Below, piece by piece: positions 1 to 2,557 of a DNA stretch of 64,000 nucleotides. Position numbers and translations under genes: made by a program. Where the stretch lies: positions 1,922,001-1,986,000 of the forward strand of contig NZ_CP045096.1 in assembly GCF_009184865.1 (NCBI RefSeq), given 5' to 3'. Numbering within the stretch: position 1 is the first letter of the stretch; each line of letters opens with the position of its first letter. Origin of the DNA: Streptomyces phaeolivaceus. GTDB lineage: Bacteria > Actinomycetota > Actinomycetes > Streptomycetales > Streptomycetaceae. A model generated the notes under the pieces. The model was not told the DNA's origin and did no database searches. It saw only the letters and a program-made list of their open reading frames with translations.

Positions 1-2557
1 TCTCCCCGTTCCGCTCCACTCGCATGGTGAAGCCCGAGCGCCAGATGTGGGTGCCGAGTTGCTCGGCCACGTCCACGTCGTCGGCCTGGAGGTAGAGCCG
101 TACTCTGGTGCCGCCTCCGGGCTGTGCGTCCTCGCTTCTGCGGATCCTGAAGAGGCTGCCGCTGGACGCGATGTCCACCCGCAGTCCGCCGCCGGTCTCC
201 GCGCGCCCGTACTCGTCGGTGGCGCGGGTCCAGATGCTGATCTCGTCGGCGAGCATGAAATAGCTGAAGACGCCGATGCCGAAACGGCTGTTGGGGTAGA
301 TCCTCAGGTTCGGGTCCGCCCGGCGCCACGCGGCCTGCTCCCGGCGGTACTCACGGGACTGCTCGAAGCGGCGGCCGGCCCGGGAGAAGGTGCCGTGCAG
401 GGTCTCGTGTCCCATGCCGACGCCGTTGTCCTCGCACTCGACGTAGGGCCGGCCCTGCTCGTCGGTGCCCTGGCGGAAGACGATCTCGCCAGACCAGGTG
501 TGCGGGATGGTCCGGGCGGCCTCACCGTAGGAGAGCCGGGCCTGTCGGTAGCGGCAGGCGTCCAGCGCGTTCTGGTAGAGCTCGCGCAGGGCGAGCGCGC
601 GGTCGCCGTAGAGGCGGGTGCCCATGAGGAGTTCACGCATCTCGTCCTCGGCGAGACCGAAGCGCATCAGCGGCACTCCATAGGCGTCGCCCTTGGTCAG
701 CACGTCGTACTGGGGGCGCAGTCTGCGGCAGGTGACCCGGTCGGGCAGATGGGCCAGGAGGTCGGTGGGCCCGCTCGGGACGATGTGCTGCCGGATGTTC
801 TGGACCGCGTCGTCGGCCCACTTCGTCAAGGTCTCCAGACCCGCGTGGACCGCCGGATGCGGGCAGGCGAGATCCAGGTCGAGTTCCTCGCCGCGCAGAC
901 CACGGACCCAGTGCGACTGCCGTACGGCTTCGACGGCCTGGGACGGGTGCAGGCCGTCCGTGATGCCGACGTTGTCGACCAGGACACCGGGGAGCTGACG
1001 CAGATCCACTCCGAGCAGGCCCGCGACGCCGATCAGCCAGGACAGCTCGCGGGGGCGCCAGCGCTCCGACGTACCGTCCGGGCGGACAACCTCGTCCAGG
1101 CGCCAGCGGGAGTCGACCGGTATCCGCTCCCCCTGGAAGGGCTGGCTGGGCACCACGGCGGTCTGGCGGCAGACGCGCACCAGTTCGTCGGTGAGCTCCC
1201 CGATCCGGGCCGGTGTCGCGGAGGCCCCGATGATCACCTTCGCGAGAGGGGCGAGGAGTTGGGGTGCGTAGGCGTCCAACAGCTCTTCCTTGGCGCCCAC
1301 ATGCCGGTGCAGGAGCCAGGCCGCGACGGCCTCGGCGTCCTCCTCGCGCTCGCGCCCGGCCAACTCCCGCCCCTTGCGCCGGAGCAGGGAGTGCGCCGCG
1401 AACGTGTGCTCCAGATCGACCCGTTCCGGTTCCCTGCCCGCGTCGCCGGTGGCCGGATCGAGCTGGAAGGGGTCGACGGCGGCCATGTCCTTGATCCCCA
1501 TGGCGTACACCGCCTCCCGTACGAAGGGGGCGGCGGCCAGCGCCGCGAACTCGCCGCCGTCGAGGAGAGGCCCGCCCCGGGTCTGTGAGGGGGCGAGCAG
1601 GGGCCGCAGACCCCGCGTCAGCACCCGTACGGGGTAGTCGTCGTCCGCCCAGGGGTCGGGCACCCCGGCCAGGGCGCCCGCGCGCCACTTCGCGCACTCT
1701 CCGGTCAACCGGACCAGCGCCGCCTGGAGTTCCTCACGGCGCCGGTCGTCGCAGGCGACGGCTTCCCACAGTTCCGGGTCACGGACCGCGACCGTCCACT
1801 CCTCCTGGAGGGTGCGTCCGGCGCAGAGCTCCACCTCGTGGACGGGGACGGGGCCGGTCGGCGGGTAGTGCGGCCGTGGCGTCTGCTTCTGCCGGGCCGC
1901 ACGGGCGAACTCCGCCGTCCTGCGGGTGGTGTGGGCGACGACCTCGGCGAACGTGCGCGGCGAGGTGTCGACGTGCAGCGCGTCCGCGAGCGCGCGGGAG
2001 AAATGGCTGCCGAGTTCCTCGTCGGTTCCACAGGTCTGCCCGGAGTCGCAGCCGAACAGGACGGCGACCCGCTCCAGCCCGGCCGGGAACGTCGTCCCCC
2101 GGCCGCCGGAGGACGGGCCGCCGGCGCCGTCGCGGCAGGCGTCGACGGTGAGCAGCACCGCGTCGGCACGGCAGCCCTTCAACAGCTTGACCAGGTCGAG
2201 CGGGATGAGGCTGTCGACGTCGACCTCGGGGGGTGTGGTCCCCCAGGTCAACTGGGCGTCCGTGGGCACGAGATGATCCGCGCCGGCCACCGACAGACCG
2301 TGCCCGGTGAAGTGGACGAGTACGGTGGCGTCCTCCGGTGCCGTGGCGCAGACCCGGCTGACGGCGCTGAGGATCCGTGAGCGCCCGGCGGATTCGCTCG
2401 CGGTCGCTCCTATGACTTCGACGCTGTAGCCGGAGGAGCGCAGTGCCGTGCTCATCAACTCGACGTCGCGACCGATGGTGTCCGTCAGATCCGCGAAACG
2501 GTCGGAGAGTTCGTACTGCGGGACCGCCACGATCAGCGCACGCCTGTTCTCCCCCAT
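1..2557 (-). CDS. Caspase-like protease fused to Hsp90-type GHKL ATPase (3' part outside window)
   Basis: 852 codons are visible; the gene is still open at base 1. Start is ATG at 2557 (MGENRRALIVAVPQY, a typical caspase-fold first strand). The N-terminal ~230 residues look like a peptidase C14 domain: His86 in VHFTGHG and Cys141 in VDACRDG form the expected dyad. A mostly helical middle (about 230-640) is unrecognised. Near residue 659 comes a GHKL ATPase: N-box ELYQNALDA (Glu659, Asn663, Asp666), D-box EDNGVGMG (Asp710) and glycine lid FGIGVFSYFMLADE (about 758-771), closest in look to Hsp90 rather than histidine kinases. By family knowledge such caspase/ATPase fusions are linked to bacterial conflict and regulated cell-death systems; that role here is inference. 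It is transcribed away from the exonuclease at 2733. Partners to the left cannot be seen. Confidence 0.85.
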   Translation of the reverse strand, partial: MGENRRALIVAVPQYELSDRFADLTDTIGRDVELMSTALRSSGYSVEVIGATASESAGRSRILSAVSRVCATAPEDATVLVHFTGHGLSVAGADHLVPTDAQLTWGTTPPEVDVDSLIPLDLVKLLKGCRADAVLLTVDACRDGAGGPSSGGRGTTFPAGLERVAVLFGCDSGQTCGTDEELGSHFSRALADALHVDTSPRTFAEVVAHTTRRTAEFARAARQKQTPRPHYPPTGPVPVHEVELCAGRTLQEEWTVAVRDPELWEAVACDDRRREELQAALVRLTGECAKWRAGALAGVPDPWADDDYPVRVLTRGLRPLLAPSQTRGGPLLDGGEFAALAAAPFVREAVYAMGIKDMAAVDPFQLDPATGDAGREPERVDLEHTFAAHSLLRRKGRELAGREREEDAEAVAAWLLHRHVGAKEELLDAYAPQLLAPLAKVIIGASATPARIGELTDELVRVCRQTAVVPSQPFQGERIPVDSRWRLDEVVRPDGTSERWRPRELSWLIGVAGLLGVDLRQLPGVLVDNVGITDGLHPSQAVEAVRQSHWVRGLRGEELDLDLACPHPAVHAGLETLTKWADDAVQNIRQHIVPSGPTDLLAHLPDRVTCRRLRPQYDVLTKGDAYGVPLMRFGLAEDEMRELLMGTRLYGDRALALRELYQNALDACRYRQARLSYGEAARTIPHTWSGEIVFRQGTDEQGRPYVECEDNGVGMGHETLHGTFSRAGRRFEQSREYRREQAAWRRADPNLRIYPNSRFGIGVFSYFMLADEISIWTRATDEYGRAETGGGLRVDIASSGSLFRIRRSEDAQPGGGTRVRLYLQADDVDVAEQLGTHIWRSGFTMRVERNGE

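Follow-up and report, generated by a model that had tools for sequence, protein, structure and literature searches.

A caspase–Hsp90 gene and two small partners

We analysed positions 1,922,001 to 1,986,000 of contig NZ_CP045096.1 of Streptomyces phaeolivaceus, a stretch of 64,000 nucleotides called the window here, for the gene at its left edge. This minus-strand gene encodes a large protein in which a caspase (C14) domain, an iHD-CE domain, an Hsp90-type ATPase and C-terminal wHTH repeats follow one another, and we refer to proteins of this order as giants. Its open reading frame (ORF) leaves the window at the left edge, as an initial annotation made from the sequence alone had described, and the complete gene was taken from the genome (Table 1). 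The same annotation had allowed for partner genes and a larger system beyond that edge; two small genes, Z and T, indeed lie there, directly downstream of the giant. The ATG at window position 2557 is the start that fits the two closest aligned relatives, both of which open with M-G-E, and the alternative is a GTG at position 2599. Residues are numbered from the GTG (GTG = 1); numbers in the initial annotation are lower by 14.

Table 1. Features of the giant and its partners, in window positions or, where marked L004, in positions of the record of the window's locus
Feature	Position	Strand	Basis or remark
Complete giant gene	L004:13324-18600	-	1758 residues from GTG, 1744 from ATG
Giant, 5′ half	1..2557	-	ORF; 852 codons from ATG 2557; remainder, then Z and T, left of the window
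Caspase (Peptidase_C14) domain, residues 19-242	1874..2545	-	Pfam, E 1.7e-13
Catalytic His100 codon (initially His86)	2300..2302	-	78/78 relatives
Catalytic Cys155 codon (initially Cys141)	2135..2137	-	78/78 relatives
iHD-CE domain, residues 268-630	710..1798	-	Pfam PF24401, E 1.9e-72
Hsp90-type GHKL ATPase domain, residues 659-844	68..625	-	NCBIfam, PDB profile search, hhalign of relatives to HtpG, fold of a relative
Glu673 codon, N-box glutamate (initially Glu659)	581..583	-	78/78 relatives; motif in scan patterns
Z, 128 residues	L004:12924-13310		Cys/His, zinc-ribbon-like; directly downstream of the giant, tight operon
T, 204 residues	L004:12313-12927		three predicted transmembrane helices and an outside beta domain; after Z

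Domains and conservation of the giant

Pfam recognises the caspase domain (51.3 bits against a cut-off of 21.4, profile positions 2–222 of 233), and the helical centre noted in the initial annotation can now be named as iHD-CE (244.9 bits against 27). Three further stretches match wHTH-HSP90_Na-assoc (PF24410), the best at residues 1675–1725 with 51 bits against 23, so the view that the C-terminus is wholly unknown was rejected. The giant reaches 36.8 bits with the EACC1-type caspase model of NCBIfam, whose cut-off is 140, and in PADLOC-DB (2023) it is matched by a generic caspase profile alone (E 9e-08). The NCBIfam HSP90 models match the ATPase domain well under their cut-offs (48.9 against 455 bits and 38.1 against 371), short of a whole-protein HtpG equivalog, and a PDB search with a profile of 10 relatives matched HtpG/Hsp90 inside profile positions 640–872. 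Fold comparison of a confident AlphaFold2 model of the C-terminal half of one relative (L070) identified both a GHKL N domain and an Hsp90 middle domain. Absence of the middle domain, suggested by hhalign alone, was rejected because this comparison overturned it. Thus the giant shares the GHKL boxes and N domain with Hsp90, HtpG and TRAP1, and a relative the fold of N and middle domains, but its score is not at HtpG level and it carries wHTH repeats at the C-terminus. Since the Hsp90-type part apparently keeps its middle domain, an ATP-driven clamp is plausible, beyond a mere ATP-binding fold.

Relatives were sought in one genome per species with a profile (A1) from an alignment of ten relatives. 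The scan confirmed 227, and we continued with the best 80; these form 78 loci, and all counts out of 78 describe this near branch. Four loci (L140, L141, L145 and L147) have the giant divided between two ORFs, one of which was used. Caspase residues His100, Asp153 and Cys155 are invariant, and loss of the dyad, which the initial annotation had named as grounds for abandoning its reading, occurs in none of the 78. The GHKL residues Glu673, Asn677, Asp724 and Gly774/Gly776 are likewise invariant, conservation of the N-box and G2-box being partly selected because the scan patterns hold parts of both; the patterns exclude the caspase residues and Arg970. Arg970 is arginine in 77 relatives and falls in a gap in one. 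A motif and its position within the aligned range suggest that it may be the Hsp90 middle-domain arginine. Both the C14 His–Cys dyad and the Hsp90-type ATPase of the initial annotation are borne out by these matches.

Within the genus, 36 of 101 genomes, the source genome included, contain a match to the giant (19 at E <= 1e-40; the other 17 are weaker and confined to a single domain). A C14 match is absent from three loci that hold iHD-CE and wHTH domains (L047, L049 and L055). Two caspase-less Hsp90-type proteins (L049:4420-8400 and L050:7463-11311) open with N-TFSGG...G..IQA..V, a stretch that, judged by eye, may resemble amyloid signalling motifs. L098 and L099 show two giant-profile ORFs in tandem in one locus.

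The fusion of a caspase with an Hsp90-type ATPase is an already known kind of conflict protein. It is no novelty in itself because the chassis already has Pfam models, the Caspase/HSP90 conflict proteins (PF24401, PF24410) showing the same order of caspase, iHD-CE, Hsp90 and wHTH. A later paper of the Aravind group, Nicastro et al., NAR 2023, seems to be the proper precedent for these proteins. The earlier survey cited by the initial annotation does concern conflict systems, but the words Hsp90 and GHKL do not occur in the available portions of its main text (eLife 2020, PMC7159879).

The Z–T pair and its protease neighbours

Z and T adjoin the giant in 70 of the 78 nearest relatives, a fraction valid for the near branch only because the loci are the best 80 of 227; the check for co-conserved neighbours proposed in the initial annotation thus found this pair. 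In an alignment of Z (83 proteins, 71 of them belonging to the 78 loci and 12 to others) a CPxC motif is invariant and a CxC, a His and a GCG nearly so. Conserved in T (82 proteins) are an A-x-x-(W/Y)-R ... K-G motif and a late Trp, with a Cys pair in 69–70. The charge distribution of T agrees with an internal N-terminus, three transmembrane helices and an external C-terminus. An AlphaFold2 model of a relative's T (predicted local distance difference test score 83.2, predicted template modelling score 0.59) has helices at 2–54, 59–87 and 99–140 followed by a five-stranded C-terminal domain.

The Z and T proteins tested matched nothing in Pfam or NCBIfam above cut-off, and no PADLOC model (PADLOC-DB 2023) matched T or the Z of relatives. 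Foldseek returned nothing for the T model at E <= 0.001. Its top rows were mostly Hfq over about 65 columns (best E 0.024), a hint that T may carry a small Sm-like beta barrel outside the membrane; no gasdermin fold was among the 50 matches listed, the best of which again had E 0.024. A PDB profile search with T gave weak matches to KcsA alone (best E 0.025), and homology to KcsA was set aside, the matches probably reflecting membrane-helix composition. Taken together, the giant chassis is known and the Z–T pair seems to be the new element of the system.

Some other caspase–Hsp90 proteins are accompanied by Pepco, a gene named by Pfam for locus L045. Pepco and Z–T occurred together in none of 103 loci scanned (some records counted twice), a scan that left aside L054 and L061–L069 from the same-genus search, and the window's locus has no Pepco gene. 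The near branch of the Caspase/HSP90 class therefore differs from the relatives scanned outside it, which have a Pepco-type gene or neither.

We also searched for T itself in overlapping draws of 296 genomes of the phylum (profile A4), 101 of the genus (A4) and 297 of the family (A5), with matches in 5, 20 and 39 genomes, respectively. Leaving out loci already in hand, these gave 52 further T loci. The largest class by profile, 26 loci, pairs Z–T with a CHAT protease, a different branch of the caspase superfamily, and 13 have Z–T with a giant-profile match. One of the 13 (L221:9688-16308) encodes a C14 caspase fused to an AAA/helicase, then a TPR protein that matches CHAT in part, adjoining Z–T; reassigning it gives 27 with CHAT and 12 with the giant, at least 6 of these 12 being not independent of the 78 because they are apparently the same records.

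The CHAT profile was built from L181–L190, in all ten of which Pfam names CHAT, and 16 of the 26 loci lie outside this training set. Every CHAT ORF is <=687 bp from Z–T (measured generously, between stop-to-stop ORF ends), with Z–T on the other strand in 15 loci and on its own strand in 11; in L186 and L189 CHAT is a separate small gene. All 26 keep a His and a Cys at the motif positions. The CHAT domain is a feature in common with the TPR-CHAT proteases, Csx29 of Craspase among them, although two Z–T-linked proteins tested score 24.3 and 18.9 bits with the TPR-CHAT model, whose cut-off is 300. The motif names were assigned by eye. Ten genomes, nine with CHAT–Z–T, hold 46 CHAT matches in ~95 Mb, from which we calculate that chance would place CHAT within 7 kb either side of Z–T in <1% of cases; in one genome (G030) the sole CHAT match is the one adjoining Z–T. 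In a tree of T, a single clade (support 100/97) gathers 78 of the 79 rows linked to Hsp90; it also takes in L180 and L192, where no giant adjoins. The placement of L134 is unsure because it lies outside the clade on a long branch. CHAT rows fall in two clades (19, and 8 of 9).

Other neighbours are varied. In L176 (1030-10384) Z and T form one ORF near EAD1-trypsin and EAD1-ThsA_Macro proteins; this locus also encodes a 1484-residue ricin-lectin protein, with a Tox-REase-5 match slightly below cut-off. L223 has a similar fused ORF, whose last Z cysteine motif and end look disturbed. At L222:9862-13382, Z–T adjoins two proteins that by eye we take to be an ATPase of the AAA type and a subtilisin-like protease. 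No recognisable protease was seen at L177, L192, L223 or L225.

Further copies and matches to the giant were found elsewhere. The source genome holds a third, decayed copy (L006:6826-8263, G000:C2 about 2204825-2206262), which matches residues 14–310 of the giant of L043 and then T, with no match to the rest of the giant or to Z. G041 (L180) keeps Z and T without the giant, and G004 (L043) keeps the full set. All three copies adjoin a gene that we presume, by eye, to be a glutamate synthase subunit, and an ORF at L004:2021-3274 looks like a group II intron reverse transcriptase. A scan of genome contigs with the window's giant as a single sequence gave 43 pattern matches and 0 confirmed. Plasmids searched with the giant yielded 10 records, none covering 80%. 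The best, an Azospirillum brasilense replicon (L228; 39% covered), has a Pepco-type ORF and no Z–T, and is a caspase–Hsp90 relative beyond actinobacteria that lacks annotation in the collection; the second, a Streptomyces collinus plasmid, matches residues 643–1011 only. Among phages, two short Listeria phage records match the ATPase domain.

A possible membrane-associated conflict system

On its domains, the best reading of the giant is an ATP-gated caspase. This part of the initial annotation's proposal stands, and an anti-phage or cell-death role is conjecture. Because most Z–T loci have in common a protease of the caspase superfamily on a large regulatory chassis, we read Z–T as a membrane module coupled to a protease. 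The best reading is that this module serves two or more protease chassis, among them the C14–Hsp90 giant and CHAT. We see about an even chance that three genes make up a membrane-associated conflict system, in which the window gene supplies the large subunit and its caspase acts on or through Z–T at the membrane, with T as effector. A trigger would be read by the C-terminal repeats and/or iHD-CE, and ATP would close the Hsp90-type clamp, as in Hsp90, juxtaposing caspase domains. The activated caspase might then cut or release Z and/or T, and T, with its N-terminus inside and its Cys-pair beta domain outside, would alter membrane integrity or signalling and so arrest or kill the cell. Z, which resembles a zinc ribbon and is coupled to T in translation, would be a likely adaptor or substrate. 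Casting T as effector and not sensor is a guess, made because the giant already carries sensor-like parts.

T, with Z, could instead act upstream, sensing at the membrane or anchoring there and switching on a caspase whose targets are other proteins. The survey's nearest analogue, the membrane-associated EACC1–caspase system (PMC7159879), offers a parallel: it is prevalent in actinobacteria, a small constant membrane protein adjoins variable caspase-bearing partners, and EACC1 is proposed as the sensor for its caspases. However, EACC1 as described there has one transmembrane helix and is the 5′ gene, whereas T combines three long helices with a beta domain, is paired with Z and is mostly the 3′ gene. 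The conserved predicted outside domain with its Cys pair could sense, and Z–T stays constant as the protease chassis changes; yet candidate switch and sensor parts are already present in the giant (iHD-CE, Hsp90 clamp and wHTH repeats), and Pepco in place of a membrane pair accompanies some of its relatives. We rate this sensor role as somewhat improbable. We think it very improbable that iHD-CE is the effector, attacking nucleotides, with the caspase merely processing the protein: the giant also matches HD-CE (E 1.6e-18), but no adjacent His–Asp pair is conserved in this region among the 78 relatives. The 'i' of iHD-CE presumably means 'inactive'.

Several observations weigh against the three-gene conflict system. 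The first predicted helix of T is just moderately hydrophobic. The frequency of Z–T beside the giant is that of the near branch: among the 101 same-genus genomes the ten best-scoring giant loci all have Z–T, and fifteen lower-scoring Hsp90-type loci that were scanned have Z–T in none, a Pepco-type gene in 6 and neither in 9. Of the 52 T loci, 7 have Z–T without CHAT or giant and 6 have T without Z. Moreover, the same exonuclease gene lies within ~6 kb of the giant in 14 of the 16 closest relatives (L070–L085), a stable chromosomal setting for the window's clade; viral contigs gave 26 pattern matches with A1 and 10 with A4, none confirmed, and plasmids searched with T held no relative. Evidence for a mobile defence island is therefore lacking. 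The stable setting and the viral contigs would suit a resident developmental or proteostasis function, such as programmed mycelial death or a client-checking protease. Against such a function stand the patchy presence in the genus, the decayed copies, and the EAD1 proteins near Z–T at L176, which point to conflict systems, and we consider it unlikely.

For the three-gene system with T as effector, a wider proposal is tentative, possible but short of probable: Z–T may be an undescribed protease-licensed actinobacterial membrane effector, gasdermin-like in logic although no relation to gasdermins was detected by sequence. On this view it was joined on two or more occasions to proteases of the caspase superfamily (the C14–Hsp90 clamp and TPR-CHAT) and perhaps to trypsin- or subtilisin-like ones. 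If true, the Hsp90 clamp would be the ATP switch for a membrane attack driven by a caspase. We know of no substrates for this class of bacterial caspase proteins, and Z–T would give it a small, conserved and testable partner pair. Since the same pair adjoins CHAT proteases, one experiment on Z–T would inform two protease families.
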